Origin: Rubrivivax sp.
GTDB lineage: Bacteria; Pseudomonadota; Gammaproteobacteria; Burkholderiales; Burkholderiaceae_C
Direction of reading: 5' to 3'
Assembly (NCBI GenBank): GCA_020852865.1
Contig: JADYZZ010000060.1
Coordinates: 1 to 64,000, forward strand
DNA length: 64,000 bases
The notes below the pieces were generated by a model. That model worked only from the letters and a program-made list of their open reading frames with translations, was not told the DNA's origin and did not search any database. Below, piece by piece: positions 9,200-59,322 of this stretch. Both the position numbers and the translations under genes were made by a program. Position 1 is the first letter of the stretch; every line of letters begins with the position of its first letter.

Positions 9200-9216
9200 G
9201 GCCCCCCGCAGGCTTT

Positions 9217-44098: not shown

Positions 44099-45460
44099 AT
44101 GAGCGATTTCGACTGCGTCATTCAAGGCCGCATCGTGCGTGCCGACCGCGTCATCGATCGCGGGTTCGTCGCCATCCGCGGCGGGCTGATCGAACATGTC
44201 GGCGCCGGCGCCGCGCCGGCCGCCCGCGAGCGCCACGACTTTGGCTCGGCGCTGGTGCTGCCCGGTGCGATCGACTCGCAGGTGCACTCGTGTTCGCAGA
44301 AGGGTCAGGAGGGTTTCGACTGGTCGACACGCAGCGCGGCCGCCGGCGGCGTCACGACGATCGTCGACATGCCCTATGACGACGGCAACCTCGTCTGTAC
44401 CGCCGAGCGCCTGAGCCGGAAGGCCGCCATGGCCGGCGCGGCTGCGCGCGTGGACTACGCGCTCTTCGGCACCATCCGGCCCCAGGACGGCGCGGCGCAT
44501 ATCGACGAGATGGCGGCTGCGGGTGCGGCGGCTTTCAAGTTCTCGACCTACGAGACCCACCCCGAGCGCTTTCCGCGCATCCCGAGCGCGGTCATGCACG
44601 ATGCCATGCGGGCGGTGGCGCCGCACGGGTTGATGGTCGGCGTGCACAACGAGAACGACGAGGCGGCGCGCGAATTCATGCGCCGCGTCGAGGCCAGCGG
44701 GGCCACCGACTGGCAGGCCCATGGCCGCTCGCGCCCGCCGATCACCGAGACGCTGGCCATCGCGGAGGTGTACGAACTCGCCGCCGATACCGGCTGCGCC
44801 GCGCACATCGTGCATTGCTCGCTCGGGCGCGGCTACGACATGGCGGCGGCCTATCGCGCACAGGGGGTGGAGGCCACCATCGAAGCCTGCATCCACTATC
44901 TCGTGCTCAGCGAGGAGGACGACGTGGCGCGCGTTGCGGGCAAGGCGAAAGTCAACCCGCCGATCCGCGGCCGCGCCGAGCGCGAGGCCCTGTGGCGGCA
45001 TCTGGCCGCCGGGAATGTCACGGTGGTCTCGACGGATCACGTGAGCTGGTCCGAGGACCGCAAGACCGACCCGAACATGCTGCGCAACGCGTCGGGCGTG
45101 CCGGGCCTGGAGGTGCTCGTTTCGCTCCTGGTGCAGGGGCTCCTCGACCGCGGCCTGCCGCTGACCTGGGCGGCGCGGCTGCTGGCGGCCAACCCGGCAC
45201 GGCTGTTTCGAATCGGCCATCGCAAAGGAGCGCTCGAACTGGGGCGCGATGCGGATGTCACCGTGCTGGCGCACCGGCCCGGCGTCTACGACCCGGCGGC
45301 GAGCGGGCACAACCGTGTCGGTTGGAGCCCTTACGCCGGGCGTCGCCTCGACCATCGCCCTGCAGCCACCTTCGCGCGCGGGGAACTGGTCTACGACGGC
45401 CGCGACGTCGTCGGCCGCGCGGGCCGCGGTCAGTTCGTGCGGCCCGCTGGCGCTCGCTGA
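44099..45460 (+). CDS. Cyclic amidohydrolase (hydantoinase/dihydropyrimidinase-allantoinase type)
   Basis: 453-residue metal-dependent amidohydrolase. Visible are LVLPGAIDSQVHSC, AAAGGVTTIVDMPYDD, FKFSTYE (the lysine usually carbamylated), VGVHNEND, HIVHCSLGRGYD and VSTDHVSWSEDRKT, giving the later His and Asp ligands. The usual HxH of the first metal site (D-x-H-V-H) is DSQVH here: Gln61 replaces the first His and His63 remains. In a cluster with an N-carbamoyl hydrolase, its expected job is opening a hydantoin ring (for example hydantoin-5-propionate) to the N-carbamoyl amino acid. First gene of the plus-strand catabolic operon. Confidence 0.83.
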   Translation: MSDFDCVIQGRIVRADRVIDRGFVAIRGGLIEHVGAGAAPAARERHDFGSALVLPGAIDSQVHSCSQKGQEGFDWSTRSAAAGGVTTIVDMPYDDGNLVCTAERLSRKAAMAGAAARVDYALFGTIRPQDGAAHIDEMAAAGAAAFKFSTYETHPERFPRIPSAVMHDAMRAVAPHGLMVGVHNENDEAAREFMRRVEASGATDWQAHGRSRPPITETLAIAEVYELAADTGCAAHIVHCSLGRGYDMAAAYRAQGVEATIEACIHYLVLSEEDDVARVAGKAKVNPPIRGRAEREALWRHLAAGNVTVVSTDHVSWSEDRKTDPNMLRNASGVPGLEVLVSLLVQGLLDRGLPLTWAARLLAANPARLFRIGHRKGALELGRDADVTVLAHRPGVYDPAASGHNRVGWSPYAGRRLDHRPAATFARGELVYDGRDVVGRAGRGQFVRPAGAR

Positions 45461-45464
45461 GCCG

Positions 45465-46784
45465 ATGCCGCCGTCGATGCAGCCAGCACGCAGTCCGGCG
45501 ACCAGGCGCCGTCCACGCATCGACGCGGCGCGCCTGTGGGACGACGTGATGGCGCTGGCCCGGCATACCGACCCACAGCGCCCGTACACGCGGCGCTCGT
45601 TTTCGCCGCTGTTCGTGCAGGGCCGCGCCTGGCTCGCCCAGCGCTTTGTCGACGCCGGGCTGACGACGCGCGTCGACCCTGCAGGCAACCTGGTCGGCCG
45701 CCGCGACGCGCTCAGGCCCGATGCGCGCGCCCTCATGGTGGGGTCGCACACCGACACGGTGCCCGAAGGCGGCCGCTTCGACGGCATCGTCGGCGTGCTG
45801 GCGGGGCTGGAGATCGCGCGCGCACTCGCCGACGCCGATTTGACGCTCGAGCATGCGTTCGAAGTGGTGGACTTCCTGGCCGAGGAGCCCAGCGACTTCG
45901 GCGTCTCCTGTATCGGCAGCCGCGCGCTCGTCGGGGCGCTCTCGGCCGAGCAGCTCGCGTCGACGTCGCCGCAGGGCCTGTCGCTGGGCCAGACCATCCG
46001 CGCACTGGGCGGTGATCCTGCGCGCATCGGCGCGACGCCGCAGCGGCGCGACGTCGCCGCGTTCCTCGAACTGCACATCGAGCAAGGTCCGGTGCTCGAG
46101 GCGACGCACACCCAGGTCGGGATCGTGACTTCGATCGTCGGCATCACGCGCCTCGAGATGGTCTTCGACGGTGCCGCAGCCCATGCCGGCACGGCGCCGA
46201 TGCGGGGCCGGCAGGACGCGGGGGTGGCTGCCGCCGGAGCCGTCCTTGCGGTGCGCGAACTGGCGCAACAGATCGACGCTGCGGGCCAAGGCTATTTCGT
46301 CGCCACCTGCGGCATCGTCGACGTCCGTCCCGGGGCCAGCAATGTCGTCCCGGGGCAGGCGCGGGTCGTCGTCGACGCGCGCTCGGAGTTCGCGGCGGCG
46401 ATGGAGCGCTTTGTCGACCTGCTGACGGTGCGCGTTCAGGCAATCGCCGCCGACAGCGGCTGCACGCTCGCGCGCTGGCAGCTGCTGTCGCGCAACGGGC
46501 CGACCGCCTGCGACCCGGGGCTGCAGCAGACCTTCGAGGATGCGGCGCAGAGCCTCGGACTGAGCCACCGCCGCATGGCTTCGGGGGCCGGGCACGACGC
46601 GGCTTTCGTCGCACGTATCGCGCCCATGGGCATGCTCTTCGTTCCCTGCCGCGAGGGGCGCAGCCATTGCCCCGAGGAATGGCTCGAGCCCGAGCAGCTT
46701 GCCCGGGGTGCGGAAGTCATGCTCGCAGCGCTGCTGCGCCTGGACGGCGCTGCAGCGCCAAGCGACGGAGGTGTCGCGCCATGA
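45465..46784 (+). CDS. Zn-dependent M20-type amidase/N-carbamoyl-L-amino acid hydrolase
   Basis: 439 residues of the allantoate amidohydrolase/beta-ureidopropionase/N-carbamoylase family. Metal ligands lie in MVGSHTDTVPEGGRFDG, FLAEEPSDFGVS and ELHIEQGPVLE; the dimer-interface His is in AAHAGTAPMRGRQD; the last ligand His is in CREGRSHCPEEW. It begins four bases after the amidohydrolase stop and overlaps the UbiD start (ATGA). With the upstream ring-opening enzyme it would release CO2, ammonia and the free amino acid, glutamate if the substrate is N-carbamoyl-glutamate (inference). Confidence 0.87.
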   Translation: MPPSMQPARSPATRRRPRIDAARLWDDVMALARHTDPQRPYTRRSFSPLFVQGRAWLAQRFVDAGLTTRVDPAGNLVGRRDALRPDARALMVGSHTDTVPEGGRFDGIVGVLAGLEIARALADADLTLEHAFEVVDFLAEEPSDFGVSCIGSRALVGALSAEQLASTSPQGLSLGQTIRALGGDPARIGATPQRRDVAAFLELHIEQGPVLEATHTQVGIVTSIVGITRLEMVFDGAAAHAGTAPMRGRQDAGVAAAGAVLAVRELAQQIDAAGQGYFVATCGIVDVRPGASNVVPGQARVVVDARSEFAAAMERFVDLLTVRVQAIAADSGCTLARWQLLSRNGPTACDPGLQQTFEDAAQSLGLSHRRMASGAGHDAAFVARIAPMGMLFVPCREGRSHCPEEWLEPEQLARGAEVMLAALLRLDGAAAPSDGGVAP

Positions 46785-48181
46785 CGCCGAGCGCACTGTC
46801 GATGCCGGCGCCCGGCGAGAGCCACTCGCTGCGCAGTTTTCTCGCGCAGCTGCAGCGCCAGGGTGAGCTGGCGACGATCGGTGCGCCGATCGACCCCGCG
46901 GGCTTCGATCTGGCCGCCTGCCTCTCGGCGCTGGATCGCGGGCCGGCCCTGGCCTTCACGAACACCGGCCCGGGCGGCATCCCGATCGTCGGCAACGTGC
47001 TGGCAACGCTCGAGCGCATCGCGGCCGGACTCGGATGCCGGCGCGACGAGCTGACCGACGTGATCGCGCGCGCGATCGAGCGGCCGCTGGCGCCGCGGCT
47101 CGTCGAAGCGGCCCCGGTGCACGAAGCCGTGCTGCCGTGCGACTTCGGTCGGCTGCCGATACCGCGCTTTTTCGAGCACGAGACCGGGCCGTACATCACG
47201 GCCGGCTGCATCGCCGCGCGCGACCGCGTGAGCGGACACGCCAATCTCTCGTATGCGCGCGTCAAGCCGATCGGGCCGGACCGCGCGCTGGTGGGCATTG
47301 CGCCGAACCACCATCTGGCCGTCATCGCGCGGGCGGCGGCGGCGCGCGGGGAAACCCAGCCTATCGCCATCACCCTCGGGAATCACCCTGCGGTTGCGCT
47401 GGCCGCCGCGCTGTACCTGAAGCTCGGCGACGACGAGATGGAGGTGGCCGGCGCCCTGGTCGGAACGCCGATCCCGGTGGCGCGCTGCCGCACCAGCGAA
47501 CTCCTCGTGCCGGCCCACTGCGAGATCGTCATCGAGGGCGAGCTCGACATGCGGGAGACCGTGGAAGAGGGACCGGTCAGCGAGTATCACGGCATGTACG
47601 AGCGCTACGGCGCGGGTGCGGTGATGCGGGTCACGTCGATCTCGCTGCGCCGCGACGCCATGCTGCAGGTGGTGCTGCCCGGCTTCCACGACGAGCATGT
47701 GCTGATCGGTGCCGTCTCGATCGCGGCCGGGCTGCAGTCGCACCTGCGTGGGTTCATCCCCGCGGTCGAGAAGGTGGCGGTTCCGGCGAGCGGGTGCGGC
47801 CGGCTGTCGGCTGTGGTCAGCCTCGGCCGCGCGCAGCGCGCAGGCGACGCGAGGAAGGTCATTCTCGCCGCCCTGAGCGCGGTGAACCTGATCAAGCAGG
47901 TGACGGTCGTCGACGACGACGTCGACCCGTGGGACGAAACGGCCGTGCAGTGGGCGATCGCCACGCGCATGCGCGCCGAACGCGACATCGTTGCCGTGCC
48001 CGGCATGCGCACCGACCGCTCCGAGCCGATGAAGCTGGGCGGGACGATCTCGAAGTTCGGCTTCGACGCCACGCGCCGCGGCGACAGCCGCGACGACTGG
48101 ACGCGCGCGCTGCCGCCTGCGCAGGCCTACGAGCGCGTGGCGGGCATCGTGGCGGCCATCAAGGCCGGCCGCCAGGCCTAG
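46781..48181 (+). CDS. UbiD-family (de)carboxylase
   Basis: 466 residues. The prenylated-FMN decarboxylase family is recognised from SLRSFLAQLQRQGEL, NTGPGGIPIVGN, IAPNHHLAVIARAA, LGNHPAVALAAAL, the catalytic-region IVIEGELDMRETVEEGPVSE YHGMYERY and KQVTVVDDDVDPWD. These enzymes decarboxylate aromatic or alpha,beta-unsaturated acids, so an imidazole-acrylate such as urocanate is a chemically suitable substrate (inference). Its start overlaps the preceding stop. No ubiX-type flavin prenyltransferase is in the window. Confidence 0.88.
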   Translation: MTPSALSMPAPGESHSLRSFLAQLQRQGELATIGAPIDPAGFDLAACLSALDRGPALAFTNTGPGGIPIVGNVLATLERIAAGLGCRRDELTDVIARAIERPLAPRLVEAAPVHEAVLPCDFGRLPIPRFFEHETGPYITAGCIAARDRVSGHANLSYARVKPIGPDRALVGIAPNHHLAVIARAAAARGETQPIAITLGNHPAVALAAALYLKLGDDEMEVAGALVGTPIPVARCRTSELLVPAHCEIVIEGELDMRETVEEGPVSEYHGMYERYGAGAVMRVTSISLRRDAMLQVVLPGFHDEHVLIGAVSIAAGLQSHLRGFIPAVEKVAVPASGCGRLSAVVSLGRAQRAGDARKVILAALSAVNLIKQVTVVDDDVDPWDETAVQWAIATRMRAERDIVAVPGMRTDRSEPMKLGGTISKFGFDATRRGDSRDDWTRALPPAQAYERVAGIVAAIKAGRQA

Positions 48182-48211
48182 GACGTACCGAGAACGGCAA
48201 GGGGGACAACG

Positions 48212-49312
48212 ATGGGACGCATCCTCACCATGCGCGATGTCGAAGCCGCGCTGCGCGGCGGCGCGGTCTTCGCGGCCGGCGGGGGCGGCTGGAGCGCGCA
48301 CGGCCGCATGCTCGGCACGGCCGCGGTCAGCGCGGGCGCGCCCGAGCTGGTCTCGATCGACGAAGTGCCCGACGACGCCTGGGTCGCCACGGCCGCTGCC
48401 ATCGGCGCCCCCGGCGATTCGACGGCGTGGCAGATGCTCGGCGTCGACTACGTGAAATCGGTGCAGCTGCTGCAGCGCGAGCTGGGCGAGCCGATCCACG
48501 CTTTGATGATCGGTCAGAACGGCAAGTCCAGCACGATGAACGGCTGGCTGCCTGCCGCCGTCCTGGGCCTCAAGGTGCTCGACGCCGTGGGTGATATCCG
48601 CGCCCATCCGACCGGCGACATGGGCTCGATCGGCCTGGCCAACAGCCCTGCGCCGACGATCCAGACCGCGGTCGGCGGCAATCGCGCCCACAATGCGTAC
48701 ATCGAACTGTGCGTGCGCGGTCCCACCGCCAAGGTTTCGCCGGTGTTGCGCACGGCAGCCGACATGGCCGGCGGCTTCATCGCCTCGTGCCGCAACCCGG
48801 TGCGGGCCGCCTACGTTCGCACGCATGCGGCGCTGGGCGGCATCTCGATGGCGCTCGCGCTGGGCGAGGCCATCGTGCAGGCCGAGCCGCGCGGCGCCAG
48901 GGCCGTCATCGACGCGATCTGCGAAGCCACCGGCGGCGCGATCATCGCCTCGGGCGCGGTCAGCGCCAAGTCGGTCGCCTACACGCGCGAGGCTTTCGAT
49001 GTCGGGACGATCTCCGTGGGCCGGGGGGCGCAGGGCTGCGTGCTGCATCTGATGAACGAGTACATGGCCGTGCAGGCACCGGACGGCACGCGGATGGCCA
49101 CCTACCCCGACGTCATCGCGACGCTGGACGAGGCGGGCGTGCCCGTCAGCGCGGGCCATGTGCGCGAGGGGCAGATGCTGCACGTGCTGCGCGTGGCCAA
49201 GGAGCGGTTGCCGCTCTCGGCCAGCGTCACCGACCCGTCCGTCTATCCGGTGGTGGAGAAGGCGCTGGGCATCGCCATCGCGGACTACGCCCTCGGGGTT
49301 GCGGCGCCATGA
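48212..49312 (+). CDS. DUF917-family protein (S-methyl-thiohydantoin desulfurase type)
   Basis: 366 residues, the usual length of DUF917, with GGAVFAAGGGGWSAHGRM, VSIDEVPDDAWVATAAAIGA, HPTGDMGSIGLAN, GAVSAKSVAYTREAFDVGT and PDVIATLDEAGVPVSAG. The family includes the desulfurase acting on a (S-methyl)thiohydantoin in bacterial ergothioneine-type catabolism, and members are often found beside hydantoinases and urocanase homologues as here. The start overlaps nothing (30 bp after UbiD); its stop overlaps the urocanase-like ATG. The exact substrate is inferred from context. Confidence 0.8.
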   Translation: MGRILTMRDVEAALRGGAVFAAGGGGWSAHGRMLGTAAVSAGAPELVSIDEVPDDAWVATAAAIGAPGDSTAWQMLGVDYVKSVQLLQRELGEPIHALMIGQNGKSSTMNGWLPAAVLGLKVLDAVGDIRAHPTGDMGSIGLANSPAPTIQTAVGGNRAHNAYIELCVRGPTAKVSPVLRTAADMAGGFIASCRNPVRAAYVRTHAALGGISMALALGEAIVQAEPRGARAVIDAICEATGGAIIASGAVSAKSVAYTREAFDVGTISVGRGAQGCVLHLMNEYMAVQAPDGTRMATYPDVIATLDEAGVPVSAGHVREGQMLHVLRVAKERLPLSASVTDPSVYPVVEKALGIAIADYALGVAAP

Positions 49313-50955
49313 CGGCCGATCGTCGTTTCGATGTGACGCGCGGCCCGGCGCTGCGTTGCCGCGGCTGGCGCCAGGAGGGCCTGCTGCGCCTGCTCGAGAA
49401 CGTGCTCGCCGTCGGCGAGCGGCCGCAGGATCTGGTCGTCTATGCGGCGCTCGGCAAGGCCGCGCGCGACTGGCCCTCGCACGACCGCATCGTATCCACG
49501 CTGCGGACGATGGAGGAGGGCCAGACGCTCGTCGTGCAGTCGGGCAAGCCGATCGGTCTGATGCGCACGCATGCGCAGGCGCCGCTGGTGCTCATGGCCA
49601 ACTGCAATCTGGTCGGCCAGTGGGCCCGGGCCGAGAACTTCTACGCGCTCGAGAAGGCCGGGCTGATCTGCTGGGGCGGGCTGACGGCCGGCGACTGGCA
49701 ATACATCGGATCGCAGGGCGTCATCCAGGGCACCTACGAGATCTTCGCGCGCATTGCCGAGCGCCACTTCGGCGGCAGCCTGGCCGGACGCTGGATCCTC
49801 ACCGCAGGTCTCGGCGGCATGGGCGGCGCGCAACCGCTGGCCGCGTGCATGGCCGGAGCGTCGATCCTGTGCGTCGAAGTCGACGGCGAGCGCATCGACA
49901 AGCGCATCGCCGCCGGCTATCTGCAGCAGCGCGCTCCAGACCTGGAAGCGGCACTGGCGATGATCCGGGCGGCGCAGGAAGCCCGACAGGCGCTGTCGGT
50001 GGGCCTGCAGGCGAATGCCGCCGATGTCTATCCGGAGCTGGTCGAGCGCGGCCTGGTTCCCGACATCGTGACCGACCAGACCTCGGCGCACGACCTGCTG
50101 TACGGATACATCCCGCGCGAGTTCTCGCTGGCGCAGGTGCGCGAGCTGCGTGCCGGCGATCCGCAACGGCTCATGGCCGCGAGCACCGCGTCGATCGTGC
50201 GCCACGTCGGCGCGATGCTCGCCTTCCAGCGGGCCGGCGCCGTGGTGTTCGACAACGGCAACCTGATCCGCACCCAGGCCAAGGCCGGCGGCGTCGCCGA
50301 CGCCTTCGACATCCCGATCTTCACCGAGGCCTTCCTGCGGCCGCTGTTCGCGCGCGCGATCGGCCCCTTCCGCTGGATCGCCCTGTCGGGCGACCCGATG
50401 GACATCGAGCGCATCGACCGGCATCTGCTCGAGCATTTCGGCCACAACGCGAGCATCGTCAACTGGATCGGTCTTGCACGCCGGCACATCCGCTTCGAGG
50501 GACTGCCGGCACGCATCGCATGGATGGGCCACGGCGAGCGCACCGCGCTGGCGCTGGCCGTCAATCGCATGGTCGCCGACGGCAGCCTGCGCGCTCCGGT
50601 CGCCTTCACCCGCGACCACCTGGACGCCGGCGCGATGGCCCATCCGAACATCATGACCGAACGCATGCGCGACGGCTCCGACGCCGTCGCCGACTGGCCG
50701 CTGCTCAACGCGATGCTCAACTGCTCGTCGCAGGCCGATTTGGTGGCGATCCACTCGGGCGGCGGCGGCTACTCCGGCTACATGACCAGCGCCGGCGTGA
50801 CGCTGGTGGCCGACGGCACGCCGCGCGCCGAGCAGCGTCTGCAACTGACCTTGGACAACGACACCTCGCTCGGCGTGATGCGGTACGCCGATGCGGGTTA
50901 CGCCGAAGCGCTCGACGAAGTCGAGCGCCGAGGGCTGGACCATTTCACCCTGTAG
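49309..50955 (+). CDS. Urocanase (HutU)-family hydratase, probably for a modified urocanate
   Basis: 548 residues, homologous to urocanate hydratase throughout: ERPQDLVVYAALGKAARDW, VQSGKPIGLMRTHAQAPLV, IGSQGVIQGTYEIF, the NAD-binding LTAGLGGMGGAQPLA, DQTSAHDLLYGYIP, VFDNGNLIRTQAK, FRWIALSGDP and DGSDAVADWPLLNAMLN. Two conserved active-site blocks differ: RPLFCRGIGPFRW of true urocanases is RPLFARAIGPFRW (Ala348 for Cys), and the HHGGGVGMG-type loop is IHSGGGGYSGYMTSAG. So it likely hydrates a ring-modified urocanate (thio-, S-methylthio- or N-methyl-). Its ATG overlaps the DUF917 stop; its TAG stop lies within the AGGAGG of dctP. Confidence 0.88.
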   Translation: MTADRRFDVTRGPALRCRGWRQEGLLRLLENVLAVGERPQDLVVYAALGKAARDWPSHDRIVSTLRTMEEGQTLVVQSGKPIGLMRTHAQAPLVLMANCNLVGQWARAENFYALEKAGLICWGGLTAGDWQYIGSQGVIQGTYEIFARIAERHFGGSLAGRWILTAGLGGMGGAQPLAACMAGASILCVEVDGERIDKRIAAGYLQQRAPDLEAALAMIRAAQEARQALSVGLQANAADVYPELVERGLVPDIVTDQTSAHDLLYGYIPREFSLAQVRELRAGDPQRLMAASTASIVRHVGAMLAFQRAGAVVFDNGNLIRTQAKAGGVADAFDIPIFTEAFLRPLFARAIGPFRWIALSGDPMDIERIDRHLLEHFGHNASIVNWIGLARRHIRFEGLPARIAWMGHGERTALALAVNRMVADGSLRAPVAFTRDHLDAGAMAHPNIMTERMRDGSDAVADWPLLNAMLNCSSQADLVAIHSGGGGYSGYMTSAGVTLVADGTPRAEQRLQLTLDNDTSLGVMRYADAGYAEALDEVERRGLDHFTL

Positions 50956-50964
50956 GAGGAAAGC

Positions 50965-51999
50965 ATGAAGCGCCGTTCGTTCCAGAAGTTCGCCCTCGGC
51001 ACGGCCGCCCTCGCCGGCGTCCCGCAATGGGCGCGCGCCCAGCAACCGATCATCCTGAAGGTGCACTCGTTCTCGAGCCCGCAGGCACCCGAGGCGGTCC
51101 ATCAGATGCTGCCGCTGATCGACAAGATCGGCAAGGATTCGGGCGGGCGGTTGAAGCTGGAGTTCTATCCCAGCATGCAGCTCGGCGGGAAGGTGAGCGA
51201 CCTGATCCAGCAGCTCGAAGACGGCGTGGTCGACATCGTGATCACGATTCCCGGCGCAACGCCGAGCCGCTTTCCGCTGCTTCAGGCCACGGAACTGCCG
51301 TTCGTCAACGCCGGAACGTCGGCCGGACAGACGCCGGCGATCCTGGAGTGGTCGCAGAAGTGGCTGTCGACCAACGAGTTCAAGGGCATCAAGATCCTCC
51401 ACATGCACGCCACCGATGCGGCGGTGCTGCATACGCGCAACAAGGCGGTGCGATCGAGCGCGGATCTGGCCGGGATGAAGATCCGCGTGCCCGGCCGTTT
51501 CGTCGGCGAGGCCGTCAAGAACATCGGCGGCACGCCGGTGGGGGTCGCCCTGCCCGAGATCTACGAGGCCCTGCAGCGCGGCCAGCTCGACGGCATGACG
51601 ATCAACTGGGCGATCATGGCTCCGTACAAGTTCCAGGAGGTGACCAAGTTCCACATGGAGAACCCCCTGTACCAGAACCCCATCATGACGCTCATGAGCC
51701 AGGCGTCCTACGACAAGCTGCCGGCAGACCTCAAGCGCGTGATCGACAGCAACATCGGCCTGGCGTATTCGACCTCCGTCGCGCGCAAGATCGACGAGCT
51801 GACGGTACCGGCCAAGAAGCTCATCACCGAGGCCGGCGGCACCCTCTACGCGCTTGCCCCGGAGGAGCTGGCCAAGTGGCGCGCTGCCGTGGGCCCGGTC
51901 TACAAGCTCTGGGTGGCGGAGGCCGACAAGCGCGGCATGCCGGGCCAGCAGATGCTCGACGACTTCCTGGCCCTGACGGCGAAGTACGGCCGCAAGTGA
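50965..51999 (+). CDS. TRAP transporter substrate-binding protein (DctP type)
   Basis: 344-residue periplasmic binding protein. RRSFQKFALGTAALAG gives a Tat-like signal cleaved near ARAQ. The DctP fold shows KVHSFSSPQAPEAVHQMLP, GGRLKLEFYPSMQLGG, the AGMKIRVPGRFVGEA block with the carboxylate-binding Arg, and GQLDGMTINWAI. A strong AGGAGGAAAG site precedes the ATG. It forms a P-Q-M set with the next two genes and presumably captures the imidazole acid handled by the surrounding enzymes. Confidence 0.93.
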   Translation: MKRRSFQKFALGTAALAGVPQWARAQQPIILKVHSFSSPQAPEAVHQMLPLIDKIGKDSGGRLKLEFYPSMQLGGKVSDLIQQLEDGVVDIVITIPGATPSRFPLLQATELPFVNAGTSAGQTPAILEWSQKWLSTNEFKGIKILHMHATDAAVLHTRNKAVRSSADLAGMKIRVPGRFVGEAVKNIGGTPVGVALPEIYEALQRGQLDGMTINWAIMAPYKFQEVTKFHMENPLYQNPIMTLMSQASYDKLPADLKRVIDSNIGLAYSTSVARKIDELTVPAKKLITEAGGTLYALAPEELAKWRAAVGPVYKLWVAEADKRGMPGQQMLDDFLALTAKYGRK

Positions 52000-52532
52000 T
52001 GTCGCCGGCGGCATCGCCGCTGACGCGGCGCCTGGAACAGCTGTGCCTGGCCTTCGCCTGGCTCGGCGGAGCCGCGCTGATGGCGGCGATGGCGGTGATC
52101 GTCATCTCGGTGACCGGCGCGCAGTTCGGCCATCCGGTGTTGGGCGACACCGAGATCGTCGACCAGCTCACGGGCGTCCTCGTCTTCTGCTTCCTGCCGT
52201 ATTGCCACTTCAGGGGCGGCAACATCCTGGTGGACTTCTTCACCAAGCCGCTGTCGCAACGTGCCGTGAACGGGCTCGACGCGTTCATGAACTTGCTGTT
52301 CGCCGTCGTTGCCGCCGTGCTTGCGTGGCGCCTGGCAGCGGGCGGGATCTCGGCCTACGAGCGCGACCAGCGGTCGATGTTCCTCGGCCTGCCCGAGTGG
52401 CGCGTGTACGCGATCGGCGTCGTGGCCATGCTGTTGTGGATCGTCGTCATCGTCCACAGCGCCTGGCTGGCCGTCGGGCGTGCGCGCGGCACGGCGCCGC
52501 CCGAAGCGGGCGCGCCGCAGTCGTTCGGATGA
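51999..52532 (+). CDS. TRAP transporter small permease (DctQ)
   Basis: 177 residues with four hydrophobic segments and the DctQ motif CHFRGGNILVDFFTKPLS. Its ATG overlaps the dctP stop (TGATG). It is the small membrane subunit that pairs with DctM. Confidence 0.88.
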   Translation: MSPAASPLTRRLEQLCLAFAWLGGAALMAAMAVIVISVTGAQFGHPVLGDTEIVDQLTGVLVFCFLPYCHFRGGNILVDFFTKPLSQRAVNGLDAFMNLLFAVVAAVLAWRLAAGGISAYERDQRSMFLGLPEWRVYAIGVVAMLLWIVVIVHSAWLAVGRARGTAPPEAGAPQSFG

Positions 52533-52601
52533 GGGCCGTGGATCGACGGACCGCAGCCGCGGCGGCTGTGCAAACGGGCGCTGCCCGCTGAGGAAGGCCT
52601 C

Positions 52602-53918
52602 ATGTCGCGTTTCGACATCGGCGTGTGGATGTTCGCCGGAACCTTGGTGGTCATCGCGTTGCGCATGCCGGTCGCCGGAGCGATGCTGCTCGTCGGCGGA
52701 GCCGGCTACGCGGCCATCAACGGTTGGATGCCGCTGTTGTCGACTCTGAAGACGATGACGTATTCGAAGTTCGCCAGCAACACGCTCGCGGTATTGCCGC
52801 TGTTCCTGCTGATGGGCGAATTCGCCACCCAGGGCGGCATGAATTCGCGGCTGTTCCGTGCTGCGCGCGCCTGGTTCGGCCATTGGCGAGGCGGGCTGGC
52901 GATGGCGACGATCGGCGGCTGCGCGGCCTTCGGCGCAATCTGCGGCTCCTCGCTGGCCACGGCGGCCACGATGTGCAAGGTCGCGCTGCCGGAGATGCGG
53001 GCCGCGGGCTACTCGCCCTCGCTGGCCACCGGCACCCTGGCTGCGGGCGGAACGCTGGGCATCCTGATCCCGCCCTCGATCATCCTCGTGATCTATGCGA
53101 TCTACACCGAGCAGTCGGTCGGCGCGCTCTTCGTCGCGGCGGTCATCCCGGGGCTGATCGCGACGATCCAGTACATGATCGTCGTCGGCCTGTACGCGCG
53201 GCTGGTTCCGGGCGCCTGCCCGAGCATCGCGCCCGCGCCCTGGAAGGAGCGTCTGGTCGCCACCCGCGGCGCATGGCCGATCGCAGCGGTCTTCGGCCTC
53301 ATCGTCGCCGGGATCTACCGCGGCTGGTTCTCGGCCTCCGAAGGCGCCGCCGTGGGCGCGTTGATGATGCTGGTGTTCGCCGTGTTCAAGGGCGGCATGC
53401 GCATGGCCGGTTTCGTCGAATCGGTACGCAACGCGGGCCAGACGTCGGCGATGATCTTCCTGATCATGTTCTCGGCCGAGCTGTTCTCGGCGGCCCTGGC
53501 CTCGTCGCAGATGCCCGCCGAACTGGCCCGGCAGGTCGCCGCCGTGAATGCCTCGCCCTACATGATCGTGGTGGTCATCATGCTGGCCTACATGGTGCTC
53601 GGCTGTTTCATGGAATCGCTGGCCATGGTGCTGCTGACGCTGCCGGTGTTCATCCCGCTGGTGCTGTCGCTCGACCTCGGCCTGGGCAAGGACGCCACGC
53701 TCGTCTGGTTCGGCATCCTGGTGCTCATGAGCGTGGAGATCGGCATGATCTCGCCGCCCTTCGGGCTGAACCTGTTCCTGATCAATTCGATGTCGGGCGG
53801 CGTGCCGATGAAGGAAACCTACAAGGGCGTGCTCGGTTTCTGCACGATGGACGTGCTGCGCGTCCTGCTCATCGTCTTCGTACCCGTGCTGGCCTTGTGG
53901 CTGCCGGGCCTGAAATGA
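52602..53918 (+). CDS. TRAP transporter large permease (DctM)
   Basis: 438 residues with about 12 hydrophobic segments. DctM hallmarks are FLLMGEFATQGGM, GSSLATAATMCKVALPEM, GYSPSLATGTLAAGGTLGIL then IPPSIILVIYAI, and ISPPFGLNLFLINSM. It is the sodium-coupled channel subunit and follows dctQ by 69 bp. A gap of 136 bp separates it from the lyase gene, with no break in strand. Confidence 0.93.
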   Translation: MSRFDIGVWMFAGTLVVIALRMPVAGAMLLVGGAGYAAINGWMPLLSTLKTMTYSKFASNTLAVLPLFLLMGEFATQGGMNSRLFRAARAWFGHWRGGLAMATIGGCAAFGAICGSSLATAATMCKVALPEMRAAGYSPSLATGTLAAGGTLGILIPPSIILVIYAIYTEQSVGALFVAAVIPGLIATIQYMIVVGLYARLVPGACPSIAPAPWKERLVATRGAWPIAAVFGLIVAGIYRGWFSASEGAAVGALMMLVFAVFKGGMRMAGFVESVRNAGQTSAMIFLIMFSAELFSAALASSQMPAELARQVAAVNASPYMIVVVIMLAYMVLGCFMESLAMVLLTLPVFIPLVLSLDLGLGKDATLVWFGILVLMSVEIGMISPPFGLNLFLINSMSGGVPMKETYKGVLGFCTMDVLRVLLIVFVPVLALWLPGLK

Positions 53919-54054
53919 ACCGGCATCGACGCGACCGCGGGGCGCGCGCGATCGGATCTCCGGTTCGGTGTGGGCGCCCGGTGCGCGCGCGCGGCGTTCG
54001 CGGCGCGACGGTCGAGACGTCGGCCGTCCCTGTCCTTGTTCCTGGAGGCTCCCA

Positions 54055-55668
54055 ATGACCGAGACCGTGATTCTGGATGGCGTGAATCTGAGCATCGACG
54101 ACGTGGTGGCGATCGCCCGTCGTGGCGCGAAGGTCGCGCTCGGTGATGCGGCGCGTGCCGAGATCGTGAAGGTGCGCGACTACATCGACACCCACTGGCT
54201 GCGCGAGGATGCGCCGCCGACCTACGGCTTCAACACCGGAGTCGGAAAGCTCAAGGACTACGCGATCTCGCAGGCCGACAACGATCGGTTCCAGCTCAAC
54301 ATCGTCCTGTCGCATTGCAGCGGCCTGGGCGACCCGGCGGCGGAAGACGTCGTCCGCGCCATGCTCGCCATCCGCATCAATGCCTTCGGTCAAGGCGTTT
54401 CGGGCCTGCGCATCGAGGTCGTCGATCGACTGATCGCGATGCTCAACCGCGGCGTGCATCCGGTCGTGCCGCTGCAGGGTTCGGTGGGCGCGAGCGGCGA
54501 CCTGGCACCGCTGGCGCATGTCGTCTCCGTCCTCATCGGTTGGCCGCAGGCCATGGCGACGTACCAGGGCGAGACGATGCCGGCGCCGCAGGCGCTCGAG
54601 CGCGCCGGCCTCGAGCCCACCTTCCAGCTCAAGGCCAAGGACTGCCTTGCGCTGATCAACGGCAACAGCCTGTGCGCGGCCATGGCGGCGCTGGTGCTGC
54701 ACGACGCGGAGCGGCAGGCGAAGCAGACCGATGCGGCCGGTGCGTTGAGCCTCGAAGCGATCCGCGGCGAGCAGGCGGCCTTCGATGCGCGCATCCACCG
54801 TGCGCGGCGGCAGAAGGGGCAGGTCGAAGCGGCGCACAACGTGCGGCGCCTGATCGAGGGCAGCCGCCGCACCACGGAGGCCGCGCGCAGCGTCCATCTG
54901 CCCGACGACCTGCTGCATCCCACCCATTCCGCGCGCATCCAGGATCAGTACTCTTTCCGCTGTCTGCCGCAGGTGCACGGCGCCTGCCGCGACAACATCG
55001 CGTACGCACGCACGCTGATCACGAACGAGCTGAATGCGGCGACCGACAACCCGCTGGTGTTCTGGAACGACAGCGGCGCGCTGGAGTTCCTGTCGGGCGG
55101 CAACTTCCACTGCGAGCCGATCGCCTTTGCCATGGACATCGTCGCGATTTCGCTCGCCGAGCTGGGCAACATCTCGGAGCGGCGCCTGTTCGCACTGTGC
55201 GACACGACGTTGAACTACGGGCTTCCGCCGAACCTGTGCGGGCAGCCGATCGGCCTGAACTGCGGGTACGCGGTGCTGTCGTGTTCGGCGGCATCGGTGG
55301 TCTCGGAGAACCGCACGCTGTGCTTCCCGGCCAGCGTCGACAACATCCCGACCAAGAGCAACCAGGAAGACCACGTCAGCATGGCGGCCTGGGCCTGCCG
55401 CAAGGCGCGCCAGGTGCTCGACAACCTGCCCAAGATCGTCGGCATCGAGATGATGCTGGCGGCGCGTGCGGTGGACCTCACGCGGGCGCAACTCGGCGGC
55501 TTCGCGCTCGGCAAGGGCACCGACGCGGTCTACCGCATGCTGCGCGAGTCGATCCCCTACGATCCGAACGACACCTACATGCCGGCGCAAACCACGCCGG
55601 CGATCGCCATCGCCGCGCGCTGCGGCGCGCTCGACGCGGCCGAGGCGGCGGTCGGCGCGCTGGCGTGA
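54055..55668 (+). CDS. MIO-type aromatic amino acid lyase, histidine ammonia-lyase family
   Basis: 537 residues. The ASG tripeptide that forms the MIO electrophile is at 146-148 (GSVGASGDLAPLA). The other HAL catalytic residues are present: Tyr57 in TYGFNTG, Asn202 in LINGNS, Gln296/Tyr299/Arg302 in QDQYSFRCLPQ, and Glu438 in NQEDHVSMA, which in HAL contacts the imidazole. So an imidazole-bearing amino acid with a free alpha-amine is the likely substrate, releasing ammonia and a urocanate-type acid. The ATG at 54055 has the site CTGGAGG. It is adjacent to the transporter and in one operon with the urocanase homologue. Confidence 0.88.
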   Translation: MTETVILDGVNLSIDDVVAIARRGAKVALGDAARAEIVKVRDYIDTHWLREDAPPTYGFNTGVGKLKDYAISQADNDRFQLNIVLSHCSGLGDPAAEDVVRAMLAIRINAFGQGVSGLRIEVVDRLIAMLNRGVHPVVPLQGSVGASGDLAPLAHVVSVLIGWPQAMATYQGETMPAPQALERAGLEPTFQLKAKDCLALINGNSLCAAMAALVLHDAERQAKQTDAAGALSLEAIRGEQAAFDARIHRARRQKGQVEAAHNVRRLIEGSRRTTEAARSVHLPDDLLHPTHSARIQDQYSFRCLPQVHGACRDNIAYARTLITNELNAATDNPLVFWNDSGALEFLSGGNFHCEPIAFAMDIVAISLAELGNISERRLFALCDTTLNYGLPPNLCGQPIGLNCGYAVLSCSAASVVSENRTLCFPASVDNIPTKSNQEDHVSMAAWACRKARQVLDNLPKIVGIEMMLAARAVDLTRAQLGGFALGKGTDAVYRMLRESIPYDPNDTYMPAQTTPAIAIAARCGALDAAEAAVGALA

Positions 55669-55761
55669 ACCCGGCACGGGGCGTCGATCGCGTGCCGCCG
55701 GCGGTGCGGGCGGTGCGCCGGTCCCGACGGCGACGCCGGCGCGTCGAGCCGGCCGGCTTCG

Positions 55762-57216
55762 ATGAACCTGCTGCGTGATCTGCGCGAGGCGCTCGGTGCG
55801 GCGGGCGTGTTGACGGCCGAGGCCGATCTTCGCGCCTATCGAGCCGACAGCACGCACCGGACCGAAGGCGGCATCCTCGCCGTCGTTCGTCCGGCGGACA
55901 CGGCGCAGGTGGTGCATGCGATCGCGGCCTGCCGGGCCTCGGGCGCGGCGCTGGTCGTGCGCGGCGGCGGTACCGGCTTCGCCGGCGGCTGCCTGCCCCT
56001 GCCCGGCCAGCAGGCGGTCGTGATGTCGCTCGAACGCATGAACCGCATCCGCTGCGTCGACCCGGTCGGCAACGTGCTCGTGGCCGAAGCCGGCTGCACG
56101 CTCGCCCGTGCGCAGGACGCGGCACGGGCACAGGGCCGGCTGCTCGGGCTGGACCATGGCGGCGCGGGCAGCAGCACGCTCGGCGGCAACATCGCCACTA
56201 ACGCCGGCGGCAACAACGTCGTGCGCTACGGCATGGCGCGGGAACAGCTGCTGGGCATCGAAGCGGTTCTGGCCGACGGCGCCGTCATCGGGCCGCCTGC
56301 CGCGCTGCGCAAGAGCAATGCCGGCTACGAGCTGCAGCAGCTGATCGCCGGCTCGGAAGGGACCCTGGCGGTGATCACCGCGGTGGCGTTGAAGCTGCGG
56401 CCGGCACCGGTGGACTCGGCCACGGCCGTGCTCGGCGTGCGCACGCCGCAGGCCGCGCTGGCGCTGTTCGCCGCGGCTCAGGCGGTGCTCGGCGACACGA
56501 TATCGGCCTTCGAGTTGATGTCGAGCGAGGCCGTCGAGTTCCACTTCGACCATGTCGGCGCGCGGCGCCCGCCCTTCGACGCCCGGGTGCCGTGGCTGGT
56601 GCTGCTCGAGGCCGAAAGCGCCAGCCCCTACATGGATCTGCCGCGTGCCTTCGACGCCTTGCTCGCAGCGCAGAGCATCGAGGGCCGGGTGCTCGACGGC
56701 AGTGTGGCCGCGTCGCTGGCCCAGCGTCGCTCGCTGTGGGCGCTGCGCGAAGGCATTGCGATCGCGATGGGCGAGAGCCGCTGGCCCATGGTCAAGACCG
56801 ACACCGCCGTGCCGGTGGCGCGTGTGCCCGAGTTCATCGAGCGCACGGGCGTGGCGGCGCAGGCCGCCATGCGCGGTGTGCGGCCGATGTACTTCGGCCA
56901 CGTGGGCGACGGCAACATCCACCTGAACCTGCTCGCGCCGCCGCGGATGCCGCACGAGGAATTCCGCCGCCGTGCCCCCGAACTGTCCGGCCGCATCGAC
57001 GAGATCGCACTGATGCTCGAGGGCACCGTGAGTGCCGAACACGGCATCGGCCAGGGCAAGCGCGAGGCGCTCGGCAGGATGCGCTCGGCGCGCGAGCTGC
57101 AACTCATGGGCGCGATCAAGGACGCCTTCGACCCCGGGCACCTGCTCAACCCGGGGAAGATCTTCGCTTGCACACCGAGTCGGCGGCCGGGTGATGCCGC
57201 CCTGGAGACCCGCTGA
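55762..57216 (+). CDS. FAD-linked 2-hydroxyacid dehydrogenase (GlcD/D-LDH family)
   Basis: 484 residues of the PCMH/GlcD type: FAD-binding VVRGGGTGFAGGCLPL, GGAGSSTLGGNIATNAGGNN and KSNAGYELQQLIAGSEGTLA; C-terminal MYFGHVGDGNIHLNLL and GTVSAEHGIGQGKREAL. It oxidises a D-2-hydroxyacid to the keto acid. Next to an aromatic-type aminotransferase (TGATG overlap) it suggests a side route from an imidazole-lactate to the keto acid and then the amino acid (inference). Confidence 0.87.
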   Translation: MNLLRDLREALGAAGVLTAEADLRAYRADSTHRTEGGILAVVRPADTAQVVHAIAACRASGAALVVRGGGTGFAGGCLPLPGQQAVVMSLERMNRIRCVDPVGNVLVAEAGCTLARAQDAARAQGRLLGLDHGGAGSSTLGGNIATNAGGNNVVRYGMAREQLLGIEAVLADGAVIGPPAALRKSNAGYELQQLIAGSEGTLAVITAVALKLRPAPVDSATAVLGVRTPQAALALFAAAQAVLGDTISAFELMSSEAVEFHFDHVGARRPPFDARVPWLVLLEAESASPYMDLPRAFDALLAAQSIEGRVLDGSVAASLAQRRSLWALREGIAIAMGESRWPMVKTDTAVPVARVPEFIERTGVAAQAAMRGVRPMYFGHVGDGNIHLNLLAPPRMPHEEFRRRAPELSGRIDEIALMLEGTVSAEHGIGQGKREALGRMRSARELQLMGAIKDAFDPGHLLNPGKIFACTPSRRPGDAALETR

Positions 57217-58400
57217 TGTTCGAGACCCTGCAGCCCGCCCCGCCCGACAAGATCCTGTCGCTGATGGGCCTGTACCGCGATGATCCACGTCCGCACAAGA
57301 TCGACCTCGGCGTGGGTGTCTACCGCGACGTCGAGGGCCGCACGCCGATCATGGCGGCGGTGCGCGAGGCCGAACGCCGCCTCCATGACCTCGAAACCAC
57401 GAAGAGCTACCTGGGTCCCGGCGGCGACCCGGGCTATTGCGATGCGATCGCCCAGCTGGTGTTCGCCGACCAGGCGCCGCGCGCGCGCCTGCGTTCGGCC
57501 CAGACGCCCGGCGGAGCCGGCGCGTTGCGCATCCTGTGCGGGCTGATCGCGCGTGCACGCCCCGCAGCCACGGTGTGGGTGCCGGTGCCGACCTGGGTCA
57601 ACCACCTGGCGATCCTCGCCGACGCCGGGCTCCCGGTGCGCACGCACAGGTATCTCGATGCGGCGGGCCACGGCGTGGCCTTCGACGCCATGATGGCGGA
57701 GCTGCAGGGAGTGGCCGCCGGCGACATCGTGCTGCTGCACGGTTGCTGCCACAACCCGGGCGGCGCCAGCCTGGACCGCGGGCAATGGGACGCGGTGGCC
57801 GACTTGCTCGAGCGGCGCGACGCCATCCCGTTCGTCGATCTGGCCTACCAGGGATTCGGGCTCGGGCTGGACGATGATGCCTATGCGGTGCGCCTGTTCG
57901 CGCGCCGCCTGCCCGAGATGGTGGTGGCGGTGTCCAGCTCCAAGAACTTCGGCATCTACCGCGAACGCACGGGCGCAGCGTTCGTGCTGGCGGCCGGCGC
58001 GCCCAGCGCCGATGCGGCGCACAGCCACCTGCTGGTGGCGGCGCGCAACAGCTATTCGATGCCGCCGGATCACGGCGCGGCACTGGTGCGCATCGTGTGG
58101 AACGATGCGGCGCTGCGTGCGCAGTGGCTGGCCGAGCTCGAAGCGATGCGCACGCATGTCGTCGGCGTGCGGCGGGCGCTGGCGGAAGCCTTCGCCGCGG
58201 CCGCGGGCTCCCGGCGCTACGACTTCATTGCGCGCCACCACGGCATGTTCTCGCTGCTCGGCACGAGGCCCGAGCAGGTGCGCCGCTTGCGCGACGAGCA
58301 CGCCGTCTACCTCGTCGAGGACGGGCGCATCAACCTGGCGGGCTTGCGCCCCGACCAGATCGGGGCCTTCGTGGACGCGGTGCTGGCGGTGACGCGTTGA
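57216..58400 (+). CDS. Class I aminotransferase (TyrB/AspC type)
   Basis: 394 residues, standard for aromatic/aspartate aminotransferases. Visible are KIDLGVGVYRD, TPGGAGALRI, LLHGCCHNPGGASLD, DLAYQGFG and the PLP-lysine segment SSSKNFGIYRERTGA. The ATG overlaps the dehydrogenase stop (TGATG). It would interconvert an aromatic or imidazole keto acid with its amino acid. Its last 71 bp overlap the convergent LysR gene. Confidence 0.9.
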   Translation: MFETLQPAPPDKILSLMGLYRDDPRPHKIDLGVGVYRDVEGRTPIMAAVREAERRLHDLETTKSYLGPGGDPGYCDAIAQLVFADQAPRARLRSAQTPGGAGALRILCGLIARARPAATVWVPVPTWVNHLAILADAGLPVRTHRYLDAAGHGVAFDAMMAELQGVAAGDIVLLHGCCHNPGGASLDRGQWDAVADLLERRDAIPFVDLAYQGFGLGLDDDAYAVRLFARRLPEMVVAVSSSKNFGIYRERTGAAFVLAAGAPSADAAHSHLLVAARNSYSMPPDHGAALVRIVWNDAALRAQWLAELEAMRTHVVGVRRALAEAFAAAAGSRRYDFIARHHGMFSLLGTRPEQVRRLRDEHAVYLVEDGRINLAGLRPDQIGAFVDAVLAVTR

Positions 58401-59322
58401 GCTCGGCGCGCGGCGGCGCCGAAGCGCGCACGCGCTCGCACGCCTCGTAGACGCACTGCAGGAAATCCGTCGCGCGCGGCGCCAGCGTGCGCCGTGCGCT
58501 GCTGTAGGCGTACACCCCGAACGGCACGGTCGGCTCGATCGGGCGCACCACCACGTCGCCCGCGAATGCGTGGGCGGTGAATTCGTCGACGACCGCGCAG
58601 CCGACGCCGGCCGCGACCAGCGCGCGCGCGAAATAGTAGGTCTGCACCTGGATGCCCGGCGCGCGCGTCATCCCGGCGCGCTCGAGGGCCTCGTGCAGCA
58701 TGCGGCCGAGGTGGTGCGAAGCCGTGAGGCCGATCAGCCGATCGAAATCGATGTCGTCCAGGCGTACCGGGCCGCCGCGGCGCGCCCTGGCGCTGCGCGG
58801 GTGGTCGATATAGACCATGTTGCCGGTGGTCACCAGCCGCGACTCGATTTCCATGCCGGCATGGCTCGGTTCGACGGTACCGAAGCACAGGCCCAGATCG
58901 AACTCGCGCGCCATCAAGCCTTGCACGAGTTCCGGCGTGTGGCGTGCCGCGATCTCGACCGGCGTGCGCGGGAATCGGGTATGGAAGCACTGGGCCGCGA
59001 GCGGCAGCACGCCGAATCCCAAGCTGGGCAGGCAGACGATGCGCAAGCGCGCATCGAGGCGTTCGCGCAGGATGCGGACGGTGTCCTGCGCGCGCTCCAG
59101 ATCGGCGAAGACGCGTTCGATGTCGGCCAGCAGCGCGGCGGCTTCCTCGGTCGGGTGGATGCGTCCGCGCAGCCGACGGAACAGCGGGAAGCGCAGCTGC
59201 TGCTCGGCCGACTTCAGCAGCTTGCTGGCCGCGGGCTGGGTGATCGACAGCGCCTTTGCTGCGCCGCTGATCGAGCCGGCGCGCGAGACGGCAAAGATGA
59301 CTTCGATGTGGCGCAGACGCAT
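58330..59322 (-). CDS. LysR-type transcriptional regulator
   Basis: 330 residues. The N-terminal winged HTH is MRLRHIEVIFAVSRAGSISG, AAKALSITQPAASKLLKSAE; the effector domain begins about residue 90 (LRIVCLPSLGFGVLPLAAQC). The C-terminus runs antisense into the aminotransferase gene by 71 bp. The start at 59322 matches the usual LysR beginning. It probably regulates the preceding catabolic operon or the divergent CoA-transferase module; 222 bp separate it from the latter. Confidence 0.88.
   Translation of the reverse strand: MRLRHIEVIFAVSRAGSISGAAKALSITQPAASKLLKSAEQQLRFPLFRRLRGRIHPTEEAAALLADIERVFADLERAQDTVRILRERLDARLRIVCLPSLGFGVLPLAAQCFHTRFPRTPVEIAARHTPELVQGLMAREFDLGLCFGTVEPSHAGMEIESRLVTTGNMVYIDHPRSARARRGGPVRLDDIDFDRLIGLTASHHLGRMLHEALERAGMTRAPGIQVQTYYFARALVAAGVGCAVVDEFTAHAFAGDVVVRPIEPTVPFGVYAYSSARRTLAPRATDFLQCVYEACERVRASAPPRAELNASPPAPRPRRPRSGRGASPPG

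Follow-up and report, generated by a model that had tools for sequence, protein, structure and literature searches.

Ergothioneine-type enzymes, an MIO ammonia-lyase, and a UbiD decarboxylase in a candidate imidazole-acid operon of Rubrivivax sp.

What compound does a bacterium degrade when it carries the last enzymes of ergothioneine catabolism but, where a trimethylamine-releasing ergothionase would be expected, has a lyase of the histidine ammonia-lyase (HAL) type? Ergothioneine is a widely eaten antioxidant, known from mushrooms and made by fungi and some bacteria, and to our knowledge the bacterial recycling of ergothioneine and its relatives is only partly known. The question is raised by eleven plus-strand genes at positions 44099 to 58400 of the first 64,000 nucleotides of contig JADYZZ010000060.1 of Rubrivivax sp. 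(assembly GCA_020852865.1), a stretch here referred to as the window. A prior reading made from the sequence only had interpreted these genes as an operon that turns a modified histidine or other imidazole acid into glutamate, and overall that interpretation is partly supported. We put at roughly one in two the probability that the operon breaks down 2-thio-imidazole-ring acids to glutamate, with thiourocanate supplied by its lyase, which bears the 4-methylideneimidazole-5-one (MIO) motif and is here called HALx. The individual families are known, and their combination is a variant of a known pathway. In the open-access literature, which did not include the key pathway papers, we found no description of this gene combination and no paper combining UbiD, hydantoin, and ammonia-lyase.

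Ergothioneine-type enzymes in a tightly packed operon

Four operon proteins exceed curated NCBIfam equivalog cut-offs for ergothioneine utilization: an ErtD-type hydantoin-5-propionate amidohydrolase, which is a cyclic amidohydrolase (44099 to 45460; NF058538, 757.8 bits, cut-off 600); an ErtE-type N-carbamoyl-L-glutamate amidohydrolase (45465 to 46784, with an uncertain start and an alternative at 45549; NF058540, 582.8 bits, cut-off 520); a thiohydantoin desulfurase of the S-Me-THD-like family, formerly DUF917 (48212 to 49312; NF058529, 578.6 bits, cut-off 440); and a thiourocanate hydratase, which is a urocanase homologue (49309 to 50955; NF058530, 992.5 bits, cut-off 930). By family, their assignment to the last four steps of ergothioneine catabolism is well supported, as is the earlier proposal of a modified-imidazole operon ending in glutamate. 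In the ergothioneine pathway, thiourocanate is converted via thiohydantoin propionate, hydantoin-5-propionate, and N-carbamoyl-glutamate to glutamate. The substrate proposed earlier was a thio- or S-/N-methyl-histidine. The S-methyl-thiourocanate pathway uses homologous hydratase and desulfurase families, but its models are not reached by the window hydratase (NF058531, 763.7 bits, cut-off 880) or desulfurase (NF058532, 265.8 bits, cut-off 450). We therefore rejected that pathway, which confines the desulfurizing route to the thio form. The hydratase is in addition over the cut-off of the general hutU model (709.1 bits, cut-off 375), and no solved chain matched the desulfurase at an E value of ≤0.001.

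The eleven genes run in one direction, with overlaps of 1 to 4 bases at 4 of 10 junctions and a largest gap of 136 bases, in line with the overlaps and short gaps described before. Open reading frames (ORFs), codon statistics that prefer the operon frames over overlapping ORFs, and curated-model matches far beyond chance for every operon protein place all of the genes named earlier in one plus-strand run. Pfam and NCBIfam assign nine of the proteins, together with a downstream LysR regulator, and separate profile searches assign the transporter permeases DctM and DctQ. Four database loci (L048, L049, L052, and L060) show the shared genes in the same sequence as the window, and therefore the arrangement is not due to chance. 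A search for this gene order in other Burkholderiales had been suggested. In a sample of 299 other Burkholderiales genomes, no thiourocanate hydratase scored over its cut-off.

Thiohydantoin desulfurase is over its cut-off in 5 of 397 other Pseudomonadota genomes (a sample), and an ergothionase-type lyase is present at four of those five loci. Ten plasmid loci with desulfurases 64 to 71% identical to that of the window were also compared. An ergothionase-type match was found at four (L044, 31% and to the Deinococcus lyase described below only; L175; L203; and L206) and a weak HAL-type match only at L205; no lyase was found in the stretch for the other five (L045, L046, L173, L174, and L204). 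Thio sets with no lyase in the stretch are thus not rare, which fits direct uptake of thiourocanate or its relatives. At one of them, on a Microvirga ossetica plasmid (L045), a desulfurase relative (70%) is accompanied by genes for ErtD- and ErtE-like proteins, two members of the racemase family, a flavin reductase, and a flavin adenine dinucleotide (FAD) oxidoreductase, and the stretch has no urocanase or lyase; this is perhaps a route for preformed thiohydantoins. Plasmid pAt of Agrobacterium tumefaciens (L219, 8881 to 18948) carries a more distant desulfurase relative (36%) with a urocanase homologue, a glutathione S-transferase, a molybdopterin S/N-oxide reductase, and betaine ATP-binding cassette (ABC) transporter genes, a set that may act on an S-oxide or S-substituted ergothioneine.

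A distinct clade of HAL-like lyases

HALx (54055 to 55668; PF00221, 577 bits) falls just under the cut-off of the hutH equivalog model TIGR01225 (527.7 bits, cut-off 539.15) and passes the broader HAL subfamily model NF006871 (556.6 bits, cut-off 524); its homologue in Allorhizobium ampelinum is just over the TIGR01225 cut-off (540.5 bits). Alignment bears out the HAL active-site residues and MIO triad noted earlier: the Ala-Ser-Gly triad is A146-S147-G148, and H87 and E438, which we take to be the imidazole-contacting His and Glu, are also present. Across 41 HALx rows (39 distinct; L185 repeats the L052 locus), the equivalents of Tyr53, His83, Asn195, Gln277, Arg283, and Glu414, presumably in the numbering of the Pseudomonas enzyme, are kept in all 41, and those of Tyr280 and Phe329 in 40. 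What sets the group apart is position 434, four residues before the conserved Glu, where all 41 HALx rows have Lys versus Ser in 42 of 43 comparison HALs (a gap in the remaining one); a further HAL from the same genome, on contig C35 and outside those 43, has Cys. The middle triad residue is Ser in 36 rows and Cys in 5; at the first position, 40 rows have Ala and the remaining one has Cys. The Ala-Cys-Gly enzymes belong to two Martelella loci and three Paenibacillus/Bacillus loci (L061, L075, L080, L081, and L082).

Relatives were collected by scanning the contigs of 84,980 species with a 126-residue HAL segment and two peptide patterns, so that HALx members without both patterns would escape; 362 stretches matched, 318 of them encode relatives, and the best 80 of these were kept. 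Among those best 80 of 318, 37 loci (L048 to L084) are 63 to 87% identical and the others at most 57%. The 40 HALx rows of a 50-row tree group into a single clade (support 100/100); since the outgroup branches are long and the outgroup placement is unsure, only the clade itself is relied on.

Neighborhoods were compared by tblastn with seeds from the window and A. ampelinum, over stretches of up to 10 kb on each side. Type A comprises the window, L048, L049, L052, and L060 (with L054 cut short) and has a tripartite ATP-independent periplasmic (TRAP) transporter, HALx, an FAD dehydrogenase, an aminotransferase, and the thio enzymes within reach; a LysR gene is present in all of these loci except L060, whose stretch ends inside the aminotransferase. 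Type B (L066 and L074) lacks desulfurase and hydratase but has ErtD, ErtE, UbiD, TRAP, HALx, the FAD dehydrogenase, and the aminotransferase. Type C (26 loci, e.g., in A. vitis, Rhizobium, Devosia, and Martelella) mostly combines a dipeptide-type ABC importer, a PEP (phosphoenolpyruvate)-mutase-family protein, ErtD, ErtE, and HALx, with an aminotransferase in some loci only and no ErtD or ErtE at four loci of the R. leguminosarum group. In the tree, the 30 type B and C rows form a subclade (support 100/99) that does not include the six type A rows. Type D (L080 to L083) has different neighbors and no UbiD or Ert genes in the stretch, and the ORFs around HALx at its Paenibacillus, Bacillus, and deltaproteobacterial loci (three of the four) gave no pointer to the lyase substrate. 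The most distant HALx, with a Cys-Ser-Gly triad, is that of a deltaproteobacterial metagenome-assembled genome (MAG; L083, 2915 to 10762), near an MTTB-family methyltransferase (PF06253, 312.5 bits) and a xanthine-dehydrogenase-type subunit.

The cluster on plasmid pAtS4e of A. ampelinum S4, in the order UbiD-UbiX-ABC-ErtD-ErtE-HALx, resembles the window in its UbiD (about 50% identical), in its HALx (69% in the alignment and 71% by tblastn), in the aminotransferase next to it (56%), and in ErtD and ErtE over their cut-offs, but it has the dipeptide-type ABC importer and PEP-mutase-family protein where the window has TRAP and the FAD dehydrogenase. This plasmid is absent from the 37 records matched by the desulfurase, and no hydratase is annotated in the stretches shown.

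The Rubrivivax genome holds three PF00221 lyases, all with Ala-Ser-Gly: HutH within a full histidine utilization (hut) operon on contig C83, HALx, and the HAL on C35. No ergothionase was found by the PF00221 search of the assembled genome, which is 95.7% complete, so that a missed gene is possible. The model detects two control lyases beside Ert genes, in Rhizobium and Deinococcus (279.6 and 404 bits), which makes the absence meaningful, if not absolute, and agrees with the earlier proposal that an MIO lyase stands in place of the trimethylamine lyase. The Rhizobium control is nearest to the solved ergothionase 6s7j (158.6 bits; best HAL, 133.2); the Deinococcus control is nearest to a HAL and owes its ergothionase-type label to gene context only. 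Five type A relatives likewise have no PF00221 lyase at the control scores (seven matches at 566 to 621 bits versus 280 and 404), and HALx is the sole match in three of the five, which are MAGs of no given completeness.

UbiD as a constant partner of HALx

The gene at 46781 to 48181 encodes, by family, a UbiD-type prenyl-FMN (flavin mononucleotide) decarboxylase (TIGR00148, 270.8 bits, cut-off 244.85). Its nearest solved relative is 6h6v (223.7 bits), whose substrate we take to be a furan acid. R160 is conserved in 12 of 12 ungapped rows of relatives and E263 and E268 in 15 of 15 (14 distinct); we assume that these three are the catalytic residues. With this Arg/Glu/Glu set and a UbiX elsewhere in the genome (G000:C74, 220 bits, cut-off 108.9), the protein resembles solved UbiD decarboxylases, from which it differs in having hydantoin enzymes as neighbors.

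UbiD is the most constant partner of HALx. We surveyed the genomes of 19 of the 37 loci (one type A, two type B, fourteen type C, and two from Bacillota); 17 of these have a UbiD relative (46 to 72% identical) whose start is no more than about 12 kb from that of HALx, on the same strand in all but one of the 17, and the Bacillota pair has none. UbiD (66 to 73%) was also present in each of four additional type A genomes, on the HALx contig in two and on another contig in two. Altogether, UbiD relatives occur in all 21 Pseudomonadota HALx genomes searched, on which grounds we rejected UbiD as a chance neighbor, and lie on the HALx contig within about 12 kb in 19 of them. In the upstream regions of twelve type C genomes, UbiD was found in all twelve, with UbiX beside it in ten, and no urocanase-type seed matched. 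The 14.7-kb stretch of the deltaproteobacterial MAG (L083), a genome outside the search, has no UbiD.

UbiD is also found with ErtD and ErtE more widely than with the sulfur enzymes. The stretches of Ensifer canadensis and R. jaguaris contain ErtD-ErtE-UbiD-UbiX but neither HALx nor desulfurase, and in R. tropici UbiD-UbiX is accompanied by no more than a short ErtE match. In Thalassospira marina, a thio set and TRAP occur together with a UbiD of lower identity (40%), and the stretch shown has no lyase. The Ensifer and Rhizobium UbiDs are 65 to 68% identical to that of Thalassospira and 42 to 44% to that of the window, and the two subgroups may, judging from this divergence, differ in function. 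Divergent to the R. jaguaris and R. tropici sets are PF00221 lyases (200 and 191 bits) whose matches skip the MIO-site region; the R. tropici lyase has no Ala-Ser-Gly by eye. An OpuAC-type glycine-betaine binding protein adjoins the R. jaguaris set. Sets of this kind lie at L187 (6325 to 10969), L188 (R. jaguaris, 4626 to 10968), and L189 (R. tropici, 7049 to 10968), with no desulfurase or hydratase in the stretches. L188 also has a ProV-like ATPase under its cut-off. Beside the R. tropici set (L189, 4194 to 6832) are an SfnB-family sulfur acquisition oxidoreductase (619.5 bits, cut-off 430.9) and an NtaA/DmoA-family FMN monooxygenase (540.2 bits, cut-off 279.7), a hint at an organosulfur substrate.

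Proposed route and alternatives

From the gene context, the operon would work as follows. The TRAP transporter, composed of the solute-binding protein DctP (50965 to 51999; NF037995 and PF03480, nearest solved chains 5i5p and 5iga), the small permease DctQ (51999 to 52532; PF04290, 61.7 bits, cut-off 28.3, no NCBIfam match), and the large permease DctM (52602 to 53918; TIGR00786, 284.9 bits, cut-off 268.45), would import an organic acid. The FAD-linked 2-hydroxyacid dehydrogenase (55762 to 57216; PF01565 and PF02913) would oxidize the lactate form of a thio-imidazole to the pyruvate form, which the aromatic/aspartate-type aminotransferase (57216 to 58400; NF006719, 507.8 bits, cut-off 377) would convert to the amino acid 2-thiohistidine, and the MIO-bearing HALx would release ammonia from it to give thiourocanate. 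As in the families that the equivalog models identify, the hydratase would then form thiohydantoin propionate, the desulfurase would swap sulfur for oxygen to yield hydantoin-5-propionate, ErtD would open the hydantoin, and ErtE would release glutamate, ammonia, and CO2.

The main support for the order lactate, pyruvate, amino acid, acrylate comes from a second set in the same genome. Two contig ends (C98 and C35, loci L010 and L009) overlap by 104 bases and together encode HutU across the contig break, TRAP, a HisC-like aminotransferase, the C35 HAL, an FAD dehydrogenase (41% identical to that of the window), HutI, and HutF, a set that seems suited to the use of plain imidazole lactate. The genome thus twice combines TRAP, a hydroxyacid dehydrogenase, an aminotransferase, and a lyase, once next to HutI and HutF and once next to the Ert genes, which supports that order. 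The C35 HAL has Asn at the His83 equivalent, and by eye a branched-chain-type ABC transporter adjoins the set.

The gene set may extend past 58400, where a LysR regulator on the minus strand (about 58330 to 59322; ORF frame, PF00126 and PF03466) is followed on the plus strand by a family III coenzyme A (CoA)-transferase (about 59560 to 60744, start uncertain; PF02515, 410.6 bits) and acyl-CoA dehydrogenases that are large-subunit-like (60794 to 61972; PF02770 and PF00441, best NCBIfam match pimC, under its cut-off) and small-subunit-like (61978 to 63090; PF00441, best match pimD, under its cut-off). The sequence-only reading had the eleven genes right but went past this CoA set without mention. 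The LysR has relatives at the same place in L048, L049, L052, and L054. In L048 and L049, the CoA-transferase and both dehydrogenases lie inside the operon, between DctM and HALx; in L054, the second of the acyl-CoA dehydrogenases directly precedes HALx; and in Paracoccus aminophilus (L046), the set is beside thio genes with no lyase in the stretch shown. Identities are 54 to 55% (L048/L049) and 70% (L046) for the large-subunit-like protein and 34 to 36% (L048, L049, and L054) for the small-subunit-like one. The set could provide a second entry in which a saturated thio-imidazole propionate would be oxidized to the acrylate. Another LysR (63044 to 64000, minus strand; PF00126 and PF03466) reaches the window edge, and its link to the operon is uncertain.

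Several observations weigh against a sulfur substrate for the lyase itself. Over its cut-off, the desulfurase occurs in only 9 of the 19 surveyed HALx genomes, a proportion that, set against the 5 of 397 above, is indicative only, as HALx genomes are mostly Hyphomicrobiales, where desulfurase may be commoner; of the other ten, four have weak matches (89 to 126 bits, cut-off 440) and six have none. HALx with the same active-site residues thus resides in genomes without thio enzymes, which makes the sulfur reading insecure for the lyase; the downstream enzymes bear out the sulfur-type substrate proposed earlier, but for the lyase such a substrate is doubtful in that its clade occurs with UbiD, ErtD, and ErtE in ten genomes without desulfurase over cut-off. 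Residue contrasts between the six type A and 30 type B/C HALx rows include none that points to sulfur. Urocanase, found in 17 of the 19 genomes, has no match of any kind in Devosia Root685 and Devosia enhydra (G309 and G315), both of which carry HALx, UbiD, and ErtD. UbiD has no place in the thiourocanate route; the sequence-only reading had set it aside as outside the known pathways, yet it turns out to be the companion that the lyase most rarely lacks. As to the other steps, the window and C98/C35 aminotransferases are unrelated by BLASTP; the FAD dehydrogenase, nearest to 3pm9 (a putative oxidoreductase) and then to D-2-hydroxyglutarate dehydrogenase 6lpn, could, given the latter relative, act on the glutamate side; and the CoA set was not seen in the L052 or L060 stretch. 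We see no sign here that free 2-thiohistidine or its lactate is common in nature. Thiourocanic acid is reported as a compound cross-fed among gut bacteria (PMC13405746), which makes direct thiourocanate uptake possible.

These points give some weight to a sulfur-free alternative, which we regard as possible but on balance rather unlikely: HALx, UbiD, and the aminotransferase would degrade a histidine carrying an anionic ring substituent (e.g., carboxylate, oxo, or sulfonate) to hydantoin-5-propionate without urocanase, and the thio genes would be a second route, fed by thiourocanate uptake (compare the cross-feeding just mentioned) or by the CoA set and co-located since both routes end in ErtD and ErtE. 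It would account for UbiD in 21 of 21 Pseudomonadota HALx genomes, for ErtD over its cut-off in 17 of the 19 surveyed genomes versus 9 for desulfurase, for the Devosia genomes, for the clade-wide Lys434, and for ErtD-ErtE-UbiD-UbiX without HALx in the Ensifer and R. jaguaris stretches, although those UbiDs are of the other subgroup. The desulfurase-bearing HALx genomes speak to the same point. These are one of type A, six of type C, and two from Bacillota whose lyase is unclassified, and the six type C genomes (G300, G302, G306, G307, G310, and G316) carry a separate module (L177, L178, L179, L183, L184, and L186) with an ergothionase-type lyase 47 to 60% identical to the Rhizobium one. The module of G300, G302, and G307 is without ErtD and ErtE, and these genomes have their sole ErtD over cut-off in the HALx operon; G310 and G316 have theirs in the module; and G306 has ErtD in both, so that ErtD seems common to the ergothioneine and HALx routes. 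However, no known natural substrate fits all of the genes, some type C stretches show no aminotransferase, and in type A, with no ergothionase detected, the hydratase would need an imported or CoA-derived substrate. That type A HALx makes thiourocanate is favored because hydratase and desulfurase are present, ergothionase is undetected, and these lyases fall outside the type B/C clade.

Use of HALx on plain histidine and of the hydratase on plain urocanate, as a spare histidine or imidazole-lactate route, is improbable. The operon does share with hut a urocanase homologue and an MIO lyase that keeps the HAL active-site residues, and the broad HAL and general hutU models are passed; however, HALx is under the hutH equivalog cut-off, the hydratase scores best on the thiourocanate model, ring opening is of the hydantoinase type, and HutI, HutF, and HutG are missing among the eleven operon proteins by Pfam and NCBIfam. 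A plain duplicate of the hut operon was rejected, the genome already having a full hut set on C83 and the second hut-like set on C98/C35. Least credible, and rejected, is an ordinary ergothioneine operon with HALx serving as ergothionase. HALx is the sole lyase beside four enzymes that elsewhere accompany ergothionase-type lyases, but both such lyases compared are without the Ala-Ser-Gly triad and the Asn195 equivalent that HALx has, and six type C HALx genomes carry an ergothionase-type module besides. Ergothionase is stated to lack MIO (PMC13405746). Relative to ergothioneine catabolism as known, the window thus shares the hydratase, desulfurase, ErtD, and ErtE and has, instead of a detected ergothionase, the MIO lyase, UbiD, FAD dehydrogenase, aminotransferase, TRAP, and CoA set.

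HALx and UbiD thus mark a wider pathway ending at ErtD and ErtE, given that UbiD was found in every Pseudomonadota HALx genome searched and ErtD in most of the genomes surveyed, whereas desulfurase is often lacking and urocanase in two. In the 2-thio-imidazole reading that we prefer for the window, UbiD may decarboxylate, or act by similar chemistry on, a ring-modified relative that also enters at ErtD and ErtE. Tentatively, and against the odds, HALx and UbiD could form the core of an undescribed Pseudomonadota pathway, on plasmids and chromosomes, for histidine with an anionic ring group. The clade Lys possibly holds this group, and UbiD possibly converts the acrylate without urocanase or desulfurase, by new prenyl-FMN chemistry such as ring decarboxylation or sulfonate removal; in R. 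jaguaris and R. tropici, a non-MIO lyase would serve a trimethylammonium version, and the window operon would be a fusion with the thiourocanate route. Stizolobic acid, willardiine, 2-oxohistidine, and histidine opines were considered as type C substrates and dropped for want of a test. Ergothioneine sulfonate is an idea for type C; a study of its catabolism has reportedly been published.

Judging from this operon, ergothionase may not be needed for the formation of thiourocanate. The operon also pairs a HAL subfamily with UbiD and hydantoin hydrolases, an association that extends across Pseudomonadota. Of all its parts, UbiD is the one whose role is of most interest: if the link between HALx and UbiD holds biochemically, it would be a route to an unknown natural compound and possibly a new prenyl-FMN reaction.

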